From: a virus | DNA length: 44,138 nt | IMG/VR virus record: IMGVR_UViG_3300020152_000009 | Coordinates: 1 to 44,138 of that record | Direction: 5' to 3' (one strand) | The notes under the pieces: generated by a model | What the model was told of the DNA's origin: nothing | Database searches by the model: none | Seen by the model: only the letters and a program-made list of their open reading frames with translations | Program-made: the position numbers and the translations under genes | Part shown: positions 1,320 to 44,138 of the stretch, one piece after another | Layout of the letters: every line of letters starts with the position of its first letter | Position numbering within the stretch: the stretch's first letter is position 1

Positions 1320-1349
1320 ATCGGGTCAGGCAACTGATCCTTACGCAGA

Positions 1350-1376
1350 GGGCGGTTCTTCGGAGCCGCCCTTTTT
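1350..1376 (+). terminator. Intrinsic terminator after capsid/decoration genes
   Basis: A stem GGGCGGTTC / GAGCCGCCC (one G-T wobble) with a TTCG tetraloop is followed by TTTTT. The structure is textbook for Rho-independent termination. It lies inside the late operon, so transcription of downstream head and tail genes needs partial read-through, antitermination or another promoter. Confidence 0.88.
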
Positions 1377-5124: not shown

Positions 5125-5805
5125 ATGGGCGGCGGCGGTACTGAAACCACAACGCAGACGAATGCTCCGTCCAATCCGGACGTGAACCCCACCCTGTCCA
5201 TGCTGTTGCGTGGGGTGCAGAACGAGAACAACAAGTTCAACCTAGCGGGCACGAATCCCAACCTGTCGGCGGGCTGGGCATCGCAGCTCGGCGCGGCTGG
5301 CAATCCTGACTATGCGCGTGGTGTGGCGGGGTCAACGCGCGAGCTTGCGGACATCGCCAGCGGCAAGCGCTTTGGCACGGATGATCCCGGCTATGCGACC
5401 ATGCGGGCCGGTGCGCTCGATGACGCTCTGACCGGAGTTGGGTCATCTTTCCTCACGGATGGGCGCTTCGGCTCCTCGGTCATGGGCGATGCTGCCGGCA
5501 CTGCGGCGACACAAACGCTGGCCGGGCTCGATTACGCCAACCTCCAGAACGACCAGCAGCGACAGATGCAGGCGATTTCAGCCCTGCCGGGCGCCTTTGC
5601 CATGGGACAGGCACCGGGCAGCGTTCAGCAGTCGGTTGGGCAATCCCAGATACAGGCTCCATGGATGGGGCTCAACAATGCTTCGAGCATTCTGGCCGGA
5701 ACGGCGGGAACAGGAGGCTCCACCAGCACCATGACACAGCCCGGCGCCCCGTGGTGGCAGGCTCCCGTTGCTATTGGCGGCACTCTTGCCGGCGCATTCT
5801 TCTAG
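5125..5805 (+). CDS. Ejection/internal virion protein, small
   Basis: The protein has 226 residues and starts at ATG 5125 with AAAGG upstream. It begins with MGGGGTETTTQTN, a Gly/Thr opening seen in many podovirus ejection proteins, and continues with Ala-, Gly-, Ser- and Gln-rich helical sequence. The C terminus (APVAIGGTLAGAFF) is a short hydrophobic helix that could insert into a membrane. Together with the next two genes it probably forms the set ejected with DNA to cross the cell envelope. The function is inferred from composition and order. Confidence 0.6.
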   Translation: MGGGGTETTTQTNAPSNPDVNPTLSMLLRGVQNENNKFNLAGTNPNLSAGWASQLGAAGNPDYARGVAGSTRELADIASGKRFGTDDPGYATMRAGALDDALTGVGSSFLTDGRFGSSVMGDAAGTAATQTLAGLDYANLQNDQQRQMQAISALPGAFAMGQAPGSVQQSVGQSQIQAPWMGLNNASSILAGTAGTGGSTSTMTQPGAPWWQAPVAIGGTLAGAFF

Positions 5806-5814
5806 GAGACACAG

Positions 5815-6723
5815 ATGGCCGGTTTTGGTGAAAGCCTCGGGTGGGCTGACAATCCCTGGTATAAGGCGTTCGATGCCAACCGCAGCGCGATTGTTTCGGG
5901 CTTTGCGGGGCTCGGCGCGGCACGTCCCGGCAATATCGGGGGTGGGTTCGCCACGGGCTTTGCTCAGGGCATGCCGATGGATGAGCAACGGGCGGATCGC
6001 GCGGCGGAAGAGGCCAAACTGGGGGAACAGACCAACGCTACCAAGTCCTGGCTTGAGCAGCATGGTTTTACCGACCTTGTGCCGCTGGTGGACGCAGGAC
6101 AGGCTGATGTTGCGTTCAACATGGCATCGGATCGGTTGAAGCCCAAGGCCGCGCCCGAAGGGTTTACGCTTGGCGCGGGCGAGTCCAGATACGATGGCGC
6201 CGGCAACGTGATCGCTCAGGGTGCGCCGGATCAGCAGGACCAGTTCGGAAACGAGAAGGATCTCTACGCTCAGTACGCAGCTTCCGACCCGGTGAAGATC
6301 TACGAAACCGTCAAGGGCGGCTATGAGCGCGTTCGGCAATCGGCAGCGCTCCAGTCGGGAGCGGGCGATATGGGCCTGATCTACGGCTACATGAAGATGC
6401 TTGATCCGGGCTCAGTTGTGCGCGAAAGCGAATTCGCCATGGCCGCGCAGGCGGGCTCATATGGTGAGCAAATCCAGGGCCTTGTGAGCCGTCTGGTTAA
6501 CGGCGAGCGCCTGCCCGAAACCGTGCGCCAGCAGTTCGTGCAGGCGGCGGATGGCATCTACAAAGAGACGGCCGCGAACCTCGGCGGCATCAATGACCAG
6601 TTCTCGACCCGTGCGCAGAACTATGGCGTTGACCCCAGCATGTTCATTCGCCAGCCCGAGAGCTATCAGCCCATTCAGGGGATCGTCACCATGCCCAACG
6701 GCAATACCGTGAAGCCGCTCTGA
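5815..6723 (+). CDS. Ejection/DNA-transfer protein
   Basis: The 302-residue protein is preceded by AGGAGACAC. It contains the segment YMKMLDPGSVVRESEFAMA (near residues 202-220), a recognisable motif of podovirus DNA-transfer and ejection proteins. The first 50 residues are Gly- and Ala-rich with hydrophobic character (AIVSGFAGLGAARPGNIGGG). Its stop overlaps the start of the large 654-aa gene. These proteins sit inside the capsid or portal and leave ahead of the genome. Confidence 0.68.
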   Translation: MAGFGESLGWADNPWYKAFDANRSAIVSGFAGLGAARPGNIGGGFATGFAQGMPMDEQRADRAAEEAKLGEQTNATKSWLEQHGFTDLVPLVDAGQADVAFNMASDRLKPKAAPEGFTLGAGESRYDGAGNVIAQGAPDQQDQFGNEKDLYAQYAASDPVKIYETVKGGYERVRQSAALQSGAGDMGLIYGYMKMLDPGSVVRESEFAMAAQAGSYGEQIQGLVSRLVNGERLPETVRQQFVQAADGIYKETAANLGGINDQFSTRAQNYGVDPSMFIRQPESYQPIQGIVTMPNGNTVKPL

Positions 6724-10012: not shown

Positions 10013-10028
10013 TCCGAACGAATCCACA

Positions 10029-10050
10029 GCCGCCCGCGAGGCGGCTTTTT
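10029..10050 (+). terminator. Intrinsic terminator before the virion hydrolase gene
   Basis: GCCGCC / GGCGGC with a CGCGA loop is followed by TTTTT. It ends 15 bp before the ATG at 10065 and lies on the plus strand. It may once have sat directly downstream of the ejection genes before the antisense cassette was inserted, or it may limit expression of the hydrolase and tail fibre. Confidence 0.85.
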
Positions 10051-17210: not shown

Positions 17211-18278
17211 CTATTCTGCCGTCTTTTTCTTCCGTTGTCCACCTGTCCGTGTGCCGGGTTTTGTGCGGCTCACATCTTGCGCAACGGTTTCCTCATCGAG
17301 GAACGCATAGTGCTTTTCGGTCACGGCGATGCTGCTGTGACCCAGGAGCTTGGAAACTTCCTCCATCGACCGGCGGTCGCGCTGGAGCCATCGACACCCA
17401 GCGGTGCGGCGCAGATCGTGCCAGCTCATCTTTGCGATGCCGGCGCGGCGAATAGCCGAACGCAGCCCGTTGTCAAATGTGGTGAAGCGCGAACCGTCAT
17501 CGTGGGCGAACACATAGAACGACTGGTTATTGGCCTTGATGCGCTGTGCCAGTATTTGTGCCGACCGAGCGGGCAGGGGCACCCAGCGCTTCTTCCCCGA
17601 CTTCGTGTCCTCGGTGGTTTCGATCATGCCCCGCTTGAGGTCAACCTGTGTGCGCAAGAGCGATAGCTGCTCCTCCTTGCGCAGGCCCGTATCAATGGCC
17701 ACACAGATCGCGTCGCGCGTCAAACCGCCGGCCGCCGCCAGTAGCTTCTCCTCCTCCTCTACCGACAGATACCGCCGCTTGCCGGGCGACTCCACAAGGC
17801 CGCGTTTCGCGCGCCGCTTGAGGAAGCCTGGGACCGGGCTCTTGCCGTCATCGAGCCATTCCTTGTCCTCGCAAAAGGAGAAGATGGACGAGAGGCAGGC
17901 GAGGTCGCGCCGAATGGTTGGCGCCGAAGTGCCCATGGCCCTGCGCTGGCTTTCGAAGGCGGACAACTCCTCCCGGCCTACAGCGTCCATCGTCAGATCC
18001 CCGAAGTGGTCCGACAGCCATTTGAGGCTGACGCCGTAGCGGGTCGCTGAGGATGGTTTCAGGGTGGGCAGGTATTCCACTATGAACGCTCGCGCTGCCG
18101 TGCCGAACGGAATTCGAGAACGCCCGCCCCAGCCCGTTGCGTCGAGTTCATCGAGCCAGACCCGGAGACGCTTTTCAGCAGTTGGTCTATCTCGTGTCGA
18201 GAGAGACTTCCGGAATTCCTTGTTGTCGCGCTGCGCCCGCGCCCACCACGTTTTCCCGCGCTTATAGATGGTTGCCAT
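17211..18278 (-). CDS. int: Tyrosine recombinase (phage integrase)
   Basis: The protein has 355 residues. ATG 18278 (MATIYKRGKTWW) has GGGAGG upstream; ten upstream in-frame codons are not needed. The N-terminal region carries an arm-binding-like domain (KTWWARAQRDNKEFR) and a core-binding SAM-like domain. The catalytic residues are visible: Arg in DTGLRKEEQLSLL, His-x-x-Arg in MSWHDLRRTAGCRWL, His in LLGHSSIAVTEKHYA and the Tyr of that last motif. It integrates and excises the phage at attP, which is 24 bp downstream. In a prophage it reads toward the attachment site. Confidence 0.93.
   Translation of the reverse strand: MATIYKRGKTWWARAQRDNKEFRKSLSTRDRPTAEKRLRVWLDELDATGWGGRSRIPFGTAARAFIVEYLPTLKPSSATRYGVSLKWLSDHFGDLTMDAVGREELSAFESQRRAMGTSAPTIRRDLACLSSIFSFCEDKEWLDDGKSPVPGFLKRRAKRGLVESPGKRRYLSVEEEEKLLAAAGGLTRDAICVAIDTGLRKEEQLSLLRTQVDLKRGMIETTEDTKSGKKRWVPLPARSAQILAQRIKANNQSFYVFAHDDGSRFTTFDNGLRSAIRRAGIAKMSWHDLRRTAGCRWLQRDRRSMEEVSKLLGHSSIAVTEKHYAFLDEETVAQDVSRTKPGTRTGGQRKKKTAE
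17251..17269 (+). repeat. Right arm-type direct repeat flanking attP
   Basis: GTGCCGGGTTTTGTGCGGC is the partner of 17051-17069 (17 of 19 identical, same orientation). It lies inside the 3' end of the integrase gene, as many phage arm sites do. Confidence 0.55.
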
Positions 18279-18466
18279 GTTGCCTCCCGCACCGTCGAGC
18301 GGTACCATTTCTCAAAGACGGCGCGATCAAACAGCCAGTGCCCTTTCGGGCCGGACGGCTGGTAAGCGCCTGGCACTCGACCGTGCGCAGCCTGCCGTAT
18401 CCAGTGCCGAGCCGTAAAGCCGAATTCGGAAGCGATGATCGAGGCAGATACCGGACGCGCTACCAT
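18080..18466 (-). CDS. Excisionase/HTH DNA-binding protein overlapping int
   Basis: The protein has 128 residues from ATG 18466, with AAGGAG at correct spacing. Residues 5-55 (ASIIASEFGFTARHWIRQAA, then GHWLFDRAVFEKWY) form a winged-helix domain as in MerR-like excisionases and HTH_17 proteins. The second half is basic and low-complexity and overlaps the integrase gene by 199 bp in another frame. An xis-int overlap is common in phages. The role as excisionase is inferred from fold and place. Confidence 0.68.
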   Translation of the reverse strand: MVARPVSASIIASEFGFTARHWIRQAAHGRVPGAYQPSGPKGHWLFDRAVFEKWYRSTVREATWQPSISAGKRGGRGRSATTRNSGSLSRHEIDQLLKSVSGSGSMNSTQRAGAGVLEFRSARQRERS

Positions 18467-34295: not shown

Positions 34296-34312
34296 CCATG
34301 AGGCTGACTACA

Positions 34313-34897
34313 ATGGGGCAGAACTGGTTCGTCATTCGCTCGAACATCAAATGCGAGGACAAGGCGGAGCGCAACCTGCGGGATGCCGGGTTCCTGACCT
34401 ATGCCCCGTGGCAGAAGTTCGAGCGGTTCAACTCCCGCAAGAAGGTCTGGATCCAGCATCAGATGCGGCTGGCGCCCCGATACCTGTTCATGGCCTCGGA
34501 CCTAAGCACGGATGACGTGCCCTGGTACGTTGTGCGCGCCTGTGAGGGCGTAGAAAGCGTTCTAGGCATCAACGGTAGCCCGCACCGGCTTTCTACCGCT
34601 GAGGTGGCCTCCCTGCACGAAATCATGAAGGCCGAAGCTGACTTCGCTTTTGACGAAACGCGGGATGGAAAACTGCACCGCCGCGAGATTGGCAAGACCA
34701 AGAAGGAAACCACCCGCATGAAATTCCCGGTCGGGTCCAAGGTGCGGATCAGCGATGGGCCTTTCACCAGCTTCAACGGCGAGGTGACCAATGTGAACGG
34801 TCGCGGGCACCTGCTGGTCATGGCTTCGATGTTCGGGCGAATGACGCCTGTGGAATTGGAGGTGGGGCAGGTTGAGGCTATTGCGTCAGCGGCGTGA
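34313..34897 (+). CDS. NusG-family transcription (anti)terminator
   Basis: The protein has 194 residues from ATG 34313, with GAGG 9 bp upstream. An N-terminal NGN-like domain (NWFVIRSNIKCEDKAERNLR, APRYLFMASDLST) binds RNA polymerase. It is followed by a C-terminal KOW domain: FPVGSKVRISDGPFTSFNGE, then MASMFGRMTPVELEVGQVE, which matches NusG closely. Phages and integrated elements often encode a NusG paralogue (like RfaH) to control late transcription. This one is the last gene of the early operon and directly precedes an RNA-hairpin-rich leader and the late genes, so I infer that it promotes late read-through. Confidence 0.87.
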   Translation: MGQNWFVIRSNIKCEDKAERNLRDAGFLTYAPWQKFERFNSRKKVWIQHQMRLAPRYLFMASDLSTDDVPWYVVRACEGVESVLGINGSPHRLSTAEVASLHEIMKAEADFAFDETRDGKLHRREIGKTKKETTRMKFPVGSKVRISDGPFTSFNGEVTNVNGRGHLLVMASMFGRMTPVELEVGQVEAIASAA

Positions 34898-34913
34898 ATA
34901 GCATAAATTTACC

Positions 34914-35145
34914 CCCAAGTGATTTGGGCTGTCTGCAAGGGGGTTCCGCTGGAACGCTGCCTTCGGGCCTCGCGGGATGAAGCATCACACTTCCCGGCCC
35001 AAAGTTTTTCGCGCATGAAATTCCCAGCAATGGGAACGGGGATGAGGATGCTGCTCTTCGCGGAGCCCAGCATCCTCCCCCAGCCAATTGCGGGCCTAGA
35101 ACCCGCCATACTCACGGTACAGGCGCTTCCGACAAGCTGGCCGTG
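34914..35145 (+). ncRNA. Hairpin-rich leader RNA between the NusG-like gene and the late operon
   Basis: At least six local stems lie in 230 nt: CCCAA/TTGGG (34914-34928), GTTCC/GGAAC (34943-34955), a GC-rich one (34965-35000), TTCCCA-GCAA-TGGGAA with a GNRA loop (35021-35036), GAGGATGCTG/CAGCATCCTC with inner CTC/GAG (35044-35077), GCGGG/CCCGC (35090-35106) and CACGG/CCGTG (35113-35145). No convincing reading frame crosses them. The density suggests a structured RNA, possibly an antitermination signal for the NusG-like protein. I have not folded it computationally. Confidence 0.5.
34965..35009 (+). terminator. Terminator-like hairpin after the NusG-like gene
   Basis: GGGC...GCCC enclosing CGGGA/TCCCG, 34965-35000, is followed by AAAG and TTTTT (35005-35009). 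The base of the stem is GC-rich and the T-run is present. It is the first likely termination point for early rightward transcription. An internal 4-nt bulge makes it weaker than the one at 35568. Confidence 0.55.
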
Positions 35146-35567
35146 TAAGAGATTCTCGGAGGGATGTTGGCAGAGTGGCGAGACGGTCGCCTTGATGCCT
35201 CGGGCCATCCAAAAGCGGTCAGTAATCAGCCAGTGGCGACGGTCGAGCGCTGTTGAATACCGCACCCACCCTATTCGCCCCATGGGCAACAAGTTCGAGA
35301 CGGCGGACGGACAAGGCTTTGGCCGGTAAGCTGAACACAATGCGGGAGTGCTCTGCCTCGGCAAAGACACGCTGAACCGCAAAGTCCGAGCCTAACCCGG
35401 ATGGGTAGCGAGTGGTCTAGCCCGTCTCGATATAGCTTGAGGCTACGGTCTGAGCGCTGCCATGGAATGGCGCTCGCAAGCGGACCAGACAACGCCTCAA
35501 CCAATTCGAGCGGCACAGCGCTAACCCCAGCTCAATTGCCAAGGCTGTTAGCCGCTCGATCCCATGA
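35146..35567. other. Non-coding stretch, late leader
   Basis: I see no supportable gene in this 420-bp stretch on either strand. The possible frames are Arg/Ser/Pro-rich and lack ribosome sites. It contains a bulged hairpin GAGC-GCT-GCCAT-GGA-ATGGC-GCTC (35452-35475) and segments that resemble tRNA D-arm or T-arm halves without forming a complete cloverleaf. Together with 34914-35145 it forms a long untranslated leader ending at the strong terminator at 35568. Confidence 0.55.
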
Positions 35568-35593
35568 GCCCGCCCTAACCCGGCGGGCTTTTT
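35568..35593 (+). terminator. Strong intrinsic terminator before the late genes
   Basis: GCCCGCC and GGCGGGC pair perfectly over a CTAACCC loop and are followed by TTTTT (35589-35593). It ends 36 bp before the first late gene at 35629. Any polymerase entering from the early operon or the leader must pass it to express late genes. Confidence 0.92.
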
Positions 35594-35628
35594 CGTGCCT
35601 ACCCACCAGCAACAGAAGGACTAGCAGC

Positions 35629-35883
35629 ATGCTCACGATCAAACATATTCGCCCTGACGGCGCCGAGGCCATCGATATTGCACGACGCGTGCTGTGGTAT
35701 CCAGCGGGCACCATTGAAACTAGTGCGAGCCCGACTGGCACCCTCACACTCATCACCCCGACCAGCGACAGTTTCGACATCGACTGCGGCACGGTCTACG
35801 TCATGAACGAGCAGGGCAAGACGGTCGGCGTCTACGACATCACGCCCGGCGTTCCTCGTCAGCCTCACCGGATCGCAGCCTAA
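35629..35883 (+). CDS. Hypothetical first late protein (84 aa)
   Basis: ATG 35629 (MLTIKHIRPDGAEAIDIARR) has AGAAGGA upstream. The protein has alternating hydrophobic strands (GTLTLITPTSDSFDIDCG, TVYVMNEQGKTVGVYDI), suggesting a small beta barrel. It is the first gene after the late terminator. The function is unknown. Confidence 0.62.
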   Translation: MLTIKHIRPDGAEAIDIARRVLWYPAGTIETSASPTGTLTLITPTSDSFDIDCGTVYVMNEQGKTVGVYDITPGVPRQPHRIAA

Positions 35884-35955
35884 CCCTCCCCAGCCCTTGG
35901 CCTTCAATGGTCATGGGCACAAGCCGTCCCACCCCATCCCCAGAGGTAGCCCATC

Positions 35956-37761
35956 ATGAGACTATCCCTTGATCTAGGGCTGGGAAGCATTGCGAGTCTC
36001 AATGCGGGTGGGGGGTGGTGGCCTTCCGGTGCAGTGTTCGCTTATGACCCGCTGCGAAGTCGCGCCATGGTGGATGGCAGCGCCGTCGATCCCGCAACGA
36101 TCATCTCGTGTTCTCGCGAAGCTTCAGGTTATCACCGCACGGTTGCCGGGGTCTATCAGAGCTTCGGGGCCAACGTCCTGCGCATCACTGACCGGGGCCT
36201 GCTGGTAGAGCCAGCCCGGACCAACCTGGTTACCTACCTCAAGGACATCGCCCAATACGGCAACGTCTCTGGCACCGCGCCGACGCGGACCAATCTGGTC
36301 ACGACAGAACTCGGCATTTTCGATCAGGGGCAACTGGTCGCCAGCCCAAATTCGACCACCACCATTGGCATATCGACCCCGACATACGCGCTCACCGCTG
36401 CCTCAGAATACGCAATGAGCGTATGGTTCAAAGCCGGCACCACCGGACAGGCCCGCTTTGTCGAGCGCGACACGACCAACGTGCTCAACAGCAATATCAA
36501 CGGCCTCATCTCAGCGTTGGCCGCTACCAGCTCGTCAGCGGGCGCTTTGACAGATGTTCTGACGGAGGATGTCGGCACGGGGAAGCTCTTAACCTCTGCC
36601 TTCGTTCCGCTCAACACGGCCACCCACGCCATTCGTCTCGGTCCCAATGGGCTAGGCGACATAACCATATTGGCTGCTCAGATCGAGCTAGGACACAAGC
36701 CAACATCGCCCATCTTGTCGGCGGGGTCTGCTGCCGCTCGCGATGCTGATGTTGTGACATTGGCCCTGGGCGCCGACGACCTCGACCTGACCTTCTGGTT
36801 TTACGATGGCACCTTTGAGGTGATCCCCCAGGTATCTGGCGACTACGCGATCCCCACCGACCTGTCGCGCTCCGAGATCATTATGGTGTCTGGAGCCCCA
36901 TATGTTCCGCCCGGCGCAGCTACGGTATTCGTGCTTCCAGACGGTCCTAGCCAGATGACTTCGGGCAAGGGTCCGTCCGGGCTTGGCGTTGTTGAGCGCG
37001 AGAGCGACGGCAAGATATTCATCACTACGGATGGTCGCCCATACGACAATGTGACGGCCTATTCGGCGGGCATCTGCCAATACAGCGAGGACAAGGCCAC
37101 TTTCGACTTCGAGTGGAAATTCTCCGACATATACCCAACCCGCTGGGGTGATCGCCCCGACCTCGTTCCGCCGAAGTTAGCTGGTGAGGGCATGTCAGGG
37201 CAAGGGCTGTCTATTGATCCGGTTGACGGGACTCTTTGGGCCATTGCCAAGGATGGGGATGATGTTGGCAGAACATCGGCACTGCATTTCGATCCGGTAG
37301 CAGCCGCCAGCGGCACAGCGGCAGATGGCTTTATCGCCCAATTCCCGCTTTCCGATACAACCAACGCGATTGTAGCGCTGTCCAACAGCCTCATGCTGAC
37401 GGCGGGGTCGACCTCGTTCCAGTTCCGCAACAAGTCGACCTTTGCCTCTGTTGGCGGGTCTTACGCTCTTAGCGGCATAGAGCAGGCATGTGAGCATGCC
37501 GCTACCAACCACCTGTTCATCACCAAGGGTGAGAACAACGAGCCGGGGCAACTCCTGCGGTTTTCCATTGGTGCGACAGCAGCGGCCTGCGTCTATGAAA
37601 AGACGTTCATCCTGCCCAGAGCGACGGCAATCGAAGGCCCGTTCATCGCAGGCTGGCGAAACAGGTTGATGATCATGCATGACGGCAATCGCCACCTGGT
37701 CCTGGTGGGGTCGCGGTTCAATGAGTTGCAGGAATATGACATCGAAGGGCTGTTCGACTAG
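35956..37761 (+). CDS. Large fibre-like/receptor-binding protein (601 aa)
   Basis: The N-terminal part has GLLVEPARTNLVTYL (near residues 80-95), a motif of phage adhesin and minor tail proteins with a carbohydrate-binding jelly-roll domain; the following 150 residues (AMSVWFKAGTTGQARFVERD) fit that fold. Residues 330-600 contain repeated strands with DG/ND turns (GLSIDPVDGTLWAIAKDGDD, LLRFSIGATAAACVYEKTF), reminiscent of a beta propeller. It probably takes part in host recognition. Its place upstream of terminase, far from the other tail genes, is unusual. Confidence 0.55.
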   Translation: MRLSLDLGLGSIASLNAGGGWWPSGAVFAYDPLRSRAMVDGSAVDPATIISCSREASGYHRTVAGVYQSFGANVLRITDRGLLVEPARTNLVTYLKDIAQYGNVSGTAPTRTNLVTTELGIFDQGQLVASPNSTTTIGISTPTYALTAASEYAMSVWFKAGTTGQARFVERDTTNVLNSNINGLISALAATSSSAGALTDVLTEDVGTGKLLTSAFVPLNTATHAIRLGPNGLGDITILAAQIELGHKPTSPILSAGSAAARDADVVTLALGADDLDLTFWFYDGTFEVIPQVSGDYAIPTDLSRSEIIMVSGAPYVPPGAATVFVLPDGPSQMTSGKGPSGLGVVERESDGKIFITTDGRPYDNVTAYSAGICQYSEDKATFDFEWKFSDIYPTRWGDRPDLVPPKLAGEGMSGQGLSIDPVDGTLWAIAKDGDDVGRTSALHFDPVAAASGTAADGFIAQFPLSDTTNAIVALSNSLMLTAGSTSFQFRNKSTFASVGGSYALSGIEQACEHAATNHLFITKGENNEPGQLLRFSIGATAAACVYEKTFILPRATAIEGPFIAGWRNRLMIMHDGNRHLVLVGSRFNELQEYDIEGLFD

Positions 37762-37787
37762 CCCACACTCCAACATCATCTGTGGGC
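37761..37787 (+). other. Stem-loop after the 601-aa gene
   Basis: GCCCACA and TGTGGGC form a 7-bp stem with a 13-nt loop, starting within the stop codon. No T-run follows, so it may be a weak pause or an mRNA stability element. Confidence 0.42.
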
Positions 37788-37826
37788 GCCCCCTTCTAAC
37801 ACCCCCATCACCATAGGAGGCCTAGC

Positions 37827-38102
37827 ATGGCCAGCACGAAGTGGAACCGTGGCGCGAACGGGTCCGACAGTTTCGGGGAAGAGGGCCGGCTTGTGACCCC
37901 CAGCGACACAACCCTGCTCGACCCAATCGCGAAATCTGTGGTGGTCACCGACGCGACTGCCGGCGCGAACATTTCTGTCCTGACCACAGGCGGCTCGACC
38001 ATTGCCTTCGTAGGCGTGGCGGTGGGCTTCATTGTTCCCTATCGCGTGGCTCGGGTGAATTCGACAGGAACCACTGTCACTTCCTGCTACACCATCGACT
38101 AG
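37827..38102 (+). CDS. Small beta-rich virion protein (91 aa)
   Basis: The protein MASTKWNRGANGSDSFGEEG... has Thr/Ser-rich strands (SVVVTDATAGANISVLTTGG, STIAFVGVAVGFIVPYRVAR). It has AGGAGG upstream. Similar small proteins occur near the terminase genes in many podoviruses and are probably structural. No exact role is known to me. Confidence 0.6.
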   Translation: MASTKWNRGANGSDSFGEEGRLVTPSDTTLLDPIAKSVVVTDATAGANISVLTTGGSTIAFVGVAVGFIVPYRVARVNSTGTTVTSCYTID

Positions 38103-38114
38103 GGAGCATTCTCC

Positions 38115-38432
38115 ATGGCGCTCTCAGGCGTACACGTCACTTGCTGCTATGCAGGCAACAGCGACAACCCGAACCAGTCCTATCCCCTGGTCGGAAAGAT
38201 ACTGTTCTCCCAGACCATGGCAAGCGCAGGCACCACAACGCAGTCCGCGCCAGCAACCACGATCACGGGCAGGAACTATCCGCTCTTCCAGGTCTATGGG
38301 ACCGCAGACTTCTACGTCGCCATCGGCCCCACGCCAGACGCATCCGGAACGGAACGGGCTTTCGTGCCGGCATACCTGCTGCGCGAGTTCTACTGCGTAC
38401 AGGGTGACAAGCTGGCTTGGGTGCTGGCGTAG
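38115..38432 (+). CDS. Small beta-rich virion protein (105 aa)
   Basis: The protein MALSGVHVTCCYAGNSDNPN... has beta character (NYPLFQVYGTADFYVAIGPT, then FVPAYLLREFYCVQGD) and ends LAWVLA. It resembles the previous protein in size and composition, so the two may be related structural components. The gene is just upstream of the terminase small subunit. Confidence 0.58.
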   Translation: MALSGVHVTCCYAGNSDNPNQSYPLVGKILFSQTMASAGTTTQSAPATTITGRNYPLFQVYGTADFYVAIGPTPDASGTERAFVPAYLLREFYCVQGDKLAWVLA

Positions 38433-38436
38433 TACG

Positions 38437-38946
38437 ATGGCTGGCAAGACGACCTTCACGCAAGAAGCAGCGGACGCCATTTGTGAGCGCATTGCTGATG
38501 GGGAAAGCCTTCGGTCAATATGCGCAGATGACGCGATGCCTTCCACATCGACAGTTTGCAAATGGTTGGCCGCCGAACCTGCATTCTCGGAACAGTACGC
38601 GCGCGCACGTGAGCTTCAAGCTGATGCGCTGTTCGATGAGATCCTAGAGATAGCAGATGATGGCTCCAACGACTGGATGGAGCGCAAGAACGCCGACGAT
38701 CAGAGTATTGGCTGGCGTGAGAACGGCGAGGCGCTTCGGCGGTCGCAACTCCGGGTTGATGCTCGCAAGTGGATGGCCGGCAAGCTCCAGGCCAAGAAGT
38801 ACGGCGACAAGCTGGATTTGAACCATAGCGGCTCGATCAGTACTATGAGCGAGGAACAGGTTGATGCTCGACTCGCTGAGCTACTCGGAAAAGCTGGAAT
38901 TGGCCCAGCTCATGGATCGTCGGGAACAACTGATCCGGTCGAATAA
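38437..38946 (+). CDS. Terminase small subunit
   Basis: The 169-residue protein has a terminase small-subunit helix-turn-helix region: TTFTQEAADAICERIADGES, then SICADDAMPSTSTVCKWLAA. The following helical domain (YARARELQADALFDEILEIA) and a basic WMAGKLQAKKYGDKLD segment are typical of this family. It recognises the packaging site. It overlaps the large-subunit gene by 83 bp, a common arrangement. Confidence 0.85.
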   Translation: MAGKTTFTQEAADAICERIADGESLRSICADDAMPSTSTVCKWLAAEPAFSEQYARARELQADALFDEILEIADDGSNDWMERKNADDQSIGWRENGEALRRSQLRVDARKWMAGKLQAKKYGDKLDLNHSGSISTMSEEQVDARLAELLGKAGIGPAHGSSGTTDPVE

Positions 38947-40273
38947 GCTCAGGGACTACCGACCCTACGCCAAGCAGTTAGAGTTTCACGAGCGGGGGGC
39001 TTGGTATCGCGAACGCCTGTTCATGGCGGGCAACCAGCTCGGCAAGACGTATGCGGGCGCTGCGGAAGCCGCAATGCATCTCACCGGCCGCTATCCCGAT
39101 TGGTGGGAAGGCCGGCGCTTTAACGGCGCTATAACGATGCTGGCGGGCTCGGAAAGCTACGAGCTGACCAGGGACGGCGTTCAACGCCTCTTGGTTGGCC
39201 CGCCGATGACCGAGGCTGAATGGGGGACGGGGTATATCCCCAAAGAGGCCATCGTGGCCACCACACGGCGTTCTGGTGTGTCTGGCGCCCTTGATACGGT
39301 TACGGTGCGCCACGTCTCTGGTGGCACGTCCACGCTGCTGCTCAAGGCCTATGAACAGGGCCGCGGCAAATGGCAGGCCAATACGGTTGAATTCGTGTGG
39401 TTCGATGAAGAGCCGCCGGAAGATGTCTATTTCGAGGGTATCACCCGCACGAACGCCACTGGCGGTTCTATTGCGGTGACCTTTACGCCCCTCAAGGGCA
39501 TGTCGGCAGTCGTGGCCAGGTACGTGCTGGAAGACAGCGAGGACCGCGCCGTCATTTCGATGACGATTGAGGACGCAGAGCACTACACGCCCGAGGAACG
39601 GGCCAAGATCATCGCAAGCTACCCGCCGCACGAGAGGGAAGCGCGCACGAAAGGCATTCCATCTCTCGGTAGTGGCTTGGTCTTCCCCGTCATAGAGGAC
39701 GACATCGTTGTTGAGCCATTCGATATCCCGGCCATTTGGCCCCAGATAATCGGCATCGACTTTGGCTATGACCATCCTTTCGGCGCGGTGCGGGTCGCTC
39801 ACGACCGCGACAACGATGTGGTTTACGTCACGGCGGAATATCGCAAGCGCGAAGCCGGCCCGGTAGTCCACTCCGCAGCGCTGAAGCCGTGGGGCTCGTG
39901 GATACCAGTGGCATGGCCTCACGATGGCATGCGCAAGGACAAAGACCCGAGCGGCAAGGAATTCAAAACTCTCTACGAAGACCAAGGCCTGAACATGCTG
40001 CCTGAGAAGGCGGAATTCGAAGGCGGCGGTTACGGGCGAGAGGCAGGCCTGATGGACATGCTCGACCGCATGGAGACAGGTCGCTGGAAGGTCTTCAAGA
40101 CCTGCACGAGCTGGCTGGAAGAGCGCCGCATGTATCACCGCAAGGATGGTGTGGTCGTCGATGAGCGTGATGATGTGCTTTGCGCCTCTCGCTACGCACT
40201 GATGATGCTCCGCTTCGCTGAGACGCACCGCGCCGGCGTCATGCCGCAAGTAGACAATGATTGGGTTCGCTAA
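38864..40273 (+). CDS. Terminase large subunit, P22/Sf6-like
   Basis: The protein has 469 residues from ATG 38864 (GAGGA upstream). The ATPase part shows Walker A in LFMAGNQLGKTYAGA and Walker B in VEFVWFDEEPPEDVYFEG. The nuclease part begins with the RNase H-like Asp in IIGIDFGYDHPFGAVRVAHD, with further acidic residues in VDERDDVLCASRYA. Length and motifs agree with headful terminases of P22-like phages, so the genome is probably circularly permuted in virions. Confidence 0.9.
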   Translation: MLDSLSYSEKLELAQLMDRREQLIRSNKLRDYRPYAKQLEFHERGAWYRERLFMAGNQLGKTYAGAAEAAMHLTGRYPDWWEGRRFNGAITMLAGSESYELTRDGVQRLLVGPPMTEAEWGTGYIPKEAIVATTRRSGVSGALDTVTVRHVSGGTSTLLLKAYEQGRGKWQANTVEFVWFDEEPPEDVYFEGITRTNATGGSIAVTFTPLKGMSAVVARYVLEDSEDRAVISMTIEDAEHYTPEERAKIIASYPPHEREARTKGIPSLGSGLVFPVIEDDIVVEPFDIPAIWPQIIGIDFGYDHPFGAVRVAHDRDNDVVYVTAEYRKREAGPVVHSAALKPWGSWIPVAWPHDGMRKDKDPSGKEFKTLYEDQGLNMLPEKAEFEGGGYGREAGLMDMLDRMETGRWKVFKTCTSWLEERRMYHRKDGVVVDERDDVLCASRYALMMLRFAETHRAGVMPQVDNDWVR

Positions 40274-43873: not shown

Positions 43874-44138
43874 ATGGCACAGGTTGCCAACACCTTCGAA
43901 ACCTACGACGCCGTAGGCAATCGGGAAGAACTGGCAGATCGCATCTACCAGATCACCCCGGAAAAGACCCCGTTCATGGCCCTCATCGGCCGCAAGTCGG
44001 TCAAGTCCACTCATCCCGAGTGGCAGACTGACGTGCTCGGTACGCCGGACACGACCAACAACCAGCCGGAAGGCAACGACTGGACCTATGACGCCATCGC
44101 GCCGACTACCCGCGTTGGCAACTACACGCAGATTTCGG
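43874..44138 (+). CDS. Major capsid protein, 5' part (continues at 1)
   Basis: The gene starts at ATG 43874 with AAGGAGA upstream. The first 46 codons end at 44011; the remaining bases here duplicate 1-127. The protein begins MAQVANTFETYDAVGNREEL, matching the N terminus of the DUF5309/SU10 capsid family, with ITPEKTPFMALIG following. The full protein has 336 residues after joining to 1-873. Confidence 0.93.
   Translation, partial: MAQVANTFETYDAVGNREELADRIYQITPEKTPFMALIGRKSVKSTHPEWQTDVLGTPDTTNNQPEGNDWTYDAIAPTTRVGNYTQIS
44012..44138. repeat. Right copy of 127-bp terminal overlap
   Basis: These bases are identical to 1-127 and should be counted once. See the left copy for the interpretation. 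Confidence 0.95.

Follow-up and report, generated by a model that had tools for sequence, protein, structure and literature searches.

The locus considered here raises the question of how transcription in a phage passes from the early operon into the late genes when a leader of about 730 bp, closed by an intrinsic terminator, lies between them. The first-pass annotation had proposed that a NusG-type protein and the leader RNA act together to open the late operon. Based on the sequence comparisons presented here, a NusG paralogue and an RNA element encoded downstream of it probably constitute a previously undescribed switch into the late genes.

The window, i.e. the whole stretch of 44,138 nt that was analysed, is the virus record IMGVR_UViG_3300020152_000009. 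It carries an exact 127-bp terminal repeat (1-127 = 44012-44138), and is therefore probably the complete genome, of about 44.0 kb, of a temperate phage. The early operon is followed on the same strand by the late genes, which continue past the end of the record to about 14 kb (Table 1).

Table 1. Coordinates of genes, RNA features and terminators in the window
Feature	Position	Strand	Basis or remark
Terminator inside the late region	1347-1374	+	dG -20.2
Terminator inside the late region	10028-10046	+	dG -12.7
Integrase	17211-18308	-	
Repressor and Cro-like genes	near 25.2-25.8 kb		
Early operon, including helicase and replication genes	starts at the repressor/Cro region (about 25.6 kb), ends with the NusG gene	+	
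NusG paralogue of the phage, closing the early operon: NGN domain, long basic linker modelled as a helix, KOW domain predicted as beta	34313-34897	+	Pfam, PHROG, NCBIfam and PDB profile matches; AlphaFold model
Conserved RNA element, putative partner of the NusG paralogue	34906-35023	+	covariance model, 98.8 bits; nhmmer; covariation
Motif A of the element, GUGAUUUG	34919-34926	+	nearly invariant in groups I and III
Helix P1', closing the P2 arm: GGGC 34926-34929 with GCCU 34967-34970	34926-34970	+	covaries in group III; hand-placed in the window
P2 arm: outer AAGG 34937-34940 / CCUU 34960-34963, inner GUUCC 34943-34947 / GGAAC 34951-34955	34937-34963	+	two-sided changes across phages
P3 hairpin, conserved UCAC in the loop (34985-34988)	34972-34997	+	covariation in alignments A8 and A9
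3' motif of the element, UUUUUCGCGCAUGAAAUUC	35005-35023	+	alignments A3 and A4; family consensus UUUUUUGCGCCCAAAAUUC
Hairpin with GCAA (GNRA) loop, TTCCCAGCAATGGGAA	35021-35036	+	directly 3' of the element; window-specific as far as seen
ncRNA-A, second conserved structured RNA, leader cargo	35113-35263	+	aligned in the window, L016/L007, L239 and L244 with compensatory changes
ncRNA-B, third structured RNA, resembling DUF3800-VIII RNA	35437-35500	+	L007 and L239 contain a homologous stretch
Intrinsic terminator before the late operon	35566-35590	+	dG -17.1; U-rich tail, the stem being followed by TTTCG
Start of the late genes: small genes, a tail-like protein, both terminase subunits	35629-40273	+	Pfam and PHROG matches
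Terminase small subunit	38416		
Terminase large subunit	38861		
Portal	40261		by position

The NusG paralogue of the early operon

The NusG-type ORF extends over 34298-34897 on the + strand, and the ATG at 34313, where the family alignment begins, is the preferred start. Its product matches Pfam NusG (E 4.9e-14; 53.1 bits, cut-off 22.2) and PHROG 6386 "transcription antiterminator" (E 1.6e-25), PDB profile matches to NusG cover its full length including the KOW domain, and the top Foldseek matches are NusG chains. The KOW domain is weak by Pfam (E 0.0024) and clear in the family alignment and the PDB profile search. The protein has an NGN domain followed by a KOW domain, as in the NusG/Spt5 family, in agreement with the initial description of a NusG-family gene with a clear KOW ending that closes the early operon at 34897. 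Its scores do not reach the cut-offs of the housekeeping NusG equivalog (TIGR00922; 82.9 of 135.7 bits), of RfaH (49.8 of 144.5 bits) or of NCBIfam LoaP (23.6 of 125 bits), and are well under that of UpxY. Because NGN and KOW are present and the scores fall well under all of these cut-offs, the protein is regarded as a specialised paralogue.

The AlphaFold model served as a test for an autoinhibited alpha-helical C-terminal domain of the RfaH type; the KOW domain is predicted to be beta (mean pLDDT 69.6). A basic linker, FDETRxGKLxRREIGKTKKETT, is strongly conserved among close relatives and is modelled as an inter-domain helix; that it binds RNA is only a guess. Among rhizobial phage NusG paralogues (L131, L147, L247:5386-6006), many seem to have no recognisable KOW domain and end in a different basic C-terminal part.

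The RNA element and the rest of the leader

The RNA element downstream of the gene was first seen when the DNA 3' of the nusG stop codon was aligned in relatives from a protein search, and an nhmmer model from 7 other phages recovers the window copy at E 8e-18. Across relatives the 3' string reads UUUUYUGCGCCCNAAAUUC, and part of the members of group III retain UGCGCCCNAAAUYC. A model of either group, I or III, picks up members of the other in the correct places, although weakly (E 0.01-0.7). Rfam 15, its phage elements included, gave no match to the element at gathering score in the window or in 14 relatives.

Helix P1' is helix 1 of the group III alignment, where 90.5% of cells are paired and two-sided changes occur in 3 of 4 pairs. 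The minimum-energy fold of the window element uses UUUGGGC 34923-34929 with GCCCAAA 34997-35003 instead of P1', and the lower P1 pairing is ambiguous in this copy. A local hairpin P1 around motif A is good in the window, L008, L012 and L022; it is not general, and is thus not claimed. A UNCG-type loop, C(UUCG)G or C(UGCG)G, is kept in group I (window 34961-34966) and competes with the covarying outer helix of P2. This loop, considered as a possible counterpart of the UNCG hairpin of LoaP, is absent in group III. The supposed terminator-like hairpin at 34965-35009 is better read as helix P3 and the U-run of the conserved element; the GNRA-loop hairpin reported at 35021-35036 is present.

A conserved RNA structure was found across relatives in two alignments, both fitted to the structure and composed of related sequences, so that the covariation test leans towards structure: in the model-based alignment of 53 copies (A8), 86.0% of cells are in standard pairs as against 75.3 +/- 0.8 when shuffled and 41-53% when slid, two-sided changes occur in 12 of 17 pairs (94 such cells versus 38 +/- 5 shuffled), and none of 500 shuffles reaches the observed values; in A9 (group I and L022, with the window) 76.5% are paired versus 62.1 +/- 2.6 shuffled (0/500), with 23 two-sided cells versus 11.7. 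Both the slid controls and the variety of pair types, for example GC/CG/AU in P3 and CG/UA/GC in P1', speak for real helices. The folding energy is no better than chance for either 34906-35023 (z +0.62) or the 731-nt leader (z -0.78), and thermodynamic stability was rejected as proof of structure. The significance of the element lies in conservation and covariation, not in energy. By energy, the hairpin-richness noted in the original description of the leader does not exceed chance.

The absence of a convincing gene from the roughly 730 bp of 34898-35628, also part of the first-pass annotation, holds: a 136-aa ORF there has no family match, and the conserved stretch varies by compensatory changes and by indels that are not multiples of three. 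The putative partner of NusG is only the first ~118 nt of the leader, and the remainder consists of other structured RNAs and the terminator. Those at 35041-35500 vary between phages, with tRNAs in relatives. Between the element and the late genes, the cargo of different leaders includes tRNAs, DUF3800-VIII RNA, skipping-rope RNA and unnamed structured RNAs.

ncRNA-A, which starts ...ACAGGCGCUUCCGACAAGCUG...UUCUCGGAG and shows nested compensatory changes, is also found at L016 841, and had no Rfam match where searched. Its 5' part is present in L240-L243, and the first part occurs in phages without a NusG-type gene on the fetched DNA. The copy of ncRNA-B at L009:6548-6612 matches Rfam RF03075 (DUF3800-VIII RNA); the window copy has no Rfam match. 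A different structured RNA, common to L008:5810-6000 and L011:2580-2760, is located just after tRNA-Met in the leader, and a skipping-rope RNA (RF02924) lies at L124:6052-6164, downstream of nusG and the element. Remnants of tRNAs were ruled out as an explanation of the window leader, none being found in the window by ARAGORN or Rfam. Strings resembling boxA (rrn/lambda N-type) are at chance level, with none in the leader.

The border between early and late genes

The strong terminator previously placed at 35568-35593, just before the late genes, was confirmed by script (a simple scanner had missed it), and is located 543 nt downstream of the element. Those described at 1350 and 10029 within the late operon are likewise present on the + strand. 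No sigma70-like promoter (>= 8/12) was found in 34880-35660, a search that a host-sigma promoter of unusual type could escape, and this is consistent with the lack of a strong late promoter on which the original proposal depended. In 13/13 records with a usable terminase-model match, the terminase gene follows the element on the same strand at a distance of 1.5-4.6 kb (positions were compared by hand, and one implausibly placed weak match in G003 was left out).

Among 79 non-redundant loci, 15 (19%) have a stringent intrinsic terminator within 700 nt after the element, compared with 0.8% of shuffles and 0/51 upstream windows; 7 of these 15 terminators start at most 26 nt from the end of the element. 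Phages without a stringent terminator soon after the element must rely on Rho, on terminators that the detector missed, or on something else. Since stringent terminators were found in a low share of loci, what is more generally overcome may be termination by Rho within the untranslated leader.

Judging from the sequences, we consider it likely that NusG is loaded on RNA polymerase at the nascent element, and that this leads to processive antitermination from the early into the late operon. Before NusG accumulates, early transcription would stop at or before the terminator at 35566; this early stop would be intrinsic in the window, and possibly also due to Rho acting on the untranslated leader. 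Once made, phage NusG would bind the elongating RNA polymerase during or after transcription of the 118-nt element, the recognised parts of which would be motif A, the P1', P2 and P3 helices, and the 3' GCGC...AAAUUC motif. With the nascent RNA as loading signal, only polymerases on the phage genome that have passed nusG would be modified, and these would ignore the terminator at 35566 and the later ones (1347, 10028) and transcribe the late operon. The sequences show the protein family, the linkage, the conserved covarying RNA and its position at the border; that NusG binds this RNA, is recruited in cis and brings about read-through, and when it does so, is what we infer.

It has also to be considered that NusG and the element might instead protect transcription through a long untranslated leader carrying tRNAs and structured RNAs, against Rho and pausing and in the manner of rrn antitermination, late expression being a by-product or having its own promoter. 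The leaders of many relatives do contain tRNAs or other structured RNAs, and most elements have no stringent intrinsic terminator soon after them. However, the element is kept where the terminator comes at once (L121, L122), and the window leader has no promoter candidate, making this explanation an unlikely one.

Linkage across phages and relation to known systems

The element is present downstream of 16/16 homologous phage NusG genes from the protein search. In 12 it directly follows the stop codon, and in 4 it lies about 780-860 nt further on, beyond inserted small genes; thus, it is not merely the nusG 3' UTR. For example, L009 and L012 have small genes and a promoter-like sequence after nusG, and the element is found ~780-840 nt downstream, just before the late genes. 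L125/L126 show the same arrangement, with the element displaced from nusG, and in L009, L012, L125, L142 and L198 it remains at the border despite genes inserted after nusG. A wider protein scan identified NusG proteins of 33-53% identity (L120-L126), and a related element lies after each of their genes; overall, the linkage holds with NusG proteins that are 33-75% identical.

A reverse search with a DNA pattern for the group III core, carried out without protein information, returned 110 viral contigs, where about 0.3 would be expected by chance (our own estimate, based on the length of the pattern and on a collection size that was assumed). After whole-record checks, 106 of these carry, on the same strand, a NusG-type gene upstream of the element: 91 within the fetched DNA, 9 more in the full record, and 6 more using another NusG as query. 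Where at least 700 nt are available upstream of the element, a NusG-type ORF is found in 88/92 contigs. As for the remaining four, the contigs of L223 and L224 stop a short way upstream of it, and L144 and L220 have what appear by eye to be damaged NusG-like remnants. Once near-duplicates are removed, 48 distinct elements are left in this set. The proposed joint action of NusG and leader RNA is supported by this near-obligate linkage, provided that it is confined to the element and not extended to the whole leader. In L022, an independent match of the first DNA pattern, 39 nt separate the element from the end of a very divergent NusG upstream, and L239 and L244, fetched for another RNA, provide a third route to NusG and an element sharing this 3' motif.

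As a control, the first (group I) DNA pattern gave 83 matches in 257 Gb of bacterial genomes, with no NusG-type ORF among those scanned. Matches of this pattern and of the first protein scan in bacterial genomes are at chance level only, and were kept as background. A NusG profile gave no match at E <= 1e-25 in 385 Alphaproteobacteria genomes.

In the cultured Rhizobium phage RHph_TM3_3_3 (MN988468), the element directly follows a gene annotated "NusG-like transcription antiterminator". The same pair is carried by S. meliloti pSymB prophages, and the RNA element is unannotated in both. S. meliloti Ak57 pSymB (L247) has two NusG paralogues (1897-2481 and 5386-6006) in one prophage region, each preceded by a GcrA-family gene and followed by its own element variant. 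RHph_Y25, which has a related terminase and no NusG, has no element and has other regulators in that place. The models of the element gave no convincing match in phi3LM21, ppBjS10J-1 and vB_LagS-V1 (L033, L028, L029). In these phages, whose NusG genes are more distant, a non-coding gap containing terminator-like hairpins lies close to nusG and ahead of downstream or late genes, and the gaps possibly hold analogous RNAs.

In most genomes the element starts 13-52 nt past the nusG stop, which would also fit a 3' UTR of the nusG mRNA that is bound by NusG to control its own expression or mRNA stability. In at least 10 phages, however, the element is 0.6-3.5 kb downstream of nusG (1.8-3.5 kb in a few), mostly past other genes and still adjoining the late genes, and we give this interpretation a smaller chance still.

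It is highly improbable that the element acts alone, the NusG gene being a helper or a neighbour by descent. The HK022 put RNA, about 70 nt with two stem-loops, is a cis-acting phage RNA that is sufficient for antitermination (PMC9378689). However, put needs no phage protein and operates in early operons, whereas the RNA described here is tied to a phage NusG at the early/late border. A self-sufficient RNA should sometimes occur without NusG, yet the linkage extends over NusG identities of 33-75% and even to the very divergent NusG of L022. Least probable of all is a DNA signal, i.e. an ops-like pause site on the non-template strand with the RNA helices secondary: the element has two near-invariant single-stranded strings, and RfaH is recruited by non-template DNA (PMC5995543), but the covarying P1' pairs strands separated by ~40 nt, more than the non-template strand of a single transcription bubble can span, and ops-like strings are at chance level in the window (6 matches with <= 2 mismatches versus 5.8 expected, none in the leader).

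For the favoured reading, loading of NusG at the nascent element, a bacterial precedent exists. LoaP shows that a NusG paralogue can require an RNA hairpin within a leader that carries a terminator (PMC12691694). As in the dfn/mln operons of Bacillus velezensis (PMC12691694), the paralogue is encoded near its target, and a structured RNA in an untranslated leader precedes a terminator and a long operon. Unlike LoaP, which serves antibiotic operons through one small UNCG hairpin, the phage system has a multi-helix element of ~118 nt at the early/late border, and its protein scores far under the cut-off of the LoaP model. RfaH (PMC5995543) and the ActX/UpxY-type paralogues are similar in being specialised NusG paralogues that modify polymerase; in contrast, ops is a short DNA element, and the phage KOW domain is predicted to be beta and not helical. 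Lambda Q, Q21, AlpA and GafZ of the Caulobacter GTA (PMC11150451) are also late-gene antiterminators of phages or phage-like clusters, but load via DNA elements near promoters and are not NusG-like.

Neither Rfam nor the literature searched (open-licence papers) describes the element, and no phage system joining a NusG paralogue and a leader RNA was found in those papers, in line with the first-pass annotation. LoaP already exemplifies the principle of a NusG paralogue acting with a leader RNA, and put and nut are known antitermination RNAs of phages; what appears to be new is a phage system uniting both. On balance, we favour the view that this is a widespread, undescribed class of processive antitermination in phages, in which the multi-helix nascent RNA encoded directly behind a NusG paralogue co-evolves with the protein and loads it on RNA polymerase. 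It would be the principal means by which many temperate phages of Alphaproteobacteria change from early to late transcription, and cognate pairs may tell related prophages in one cell apart. The two NusG-element pairs of S. meliloti Ak57 offer an opening to a direct test of specificity, and the more than 100 natural protein-RNA pairs form a library for how a NusG paralogue recognises RNA. The element represents an RNA family absent from Rfam, and together with its NusG paralogue probably accounts for how many temperate phages, cultured rhizobial ones among them, switch from early to late genes.
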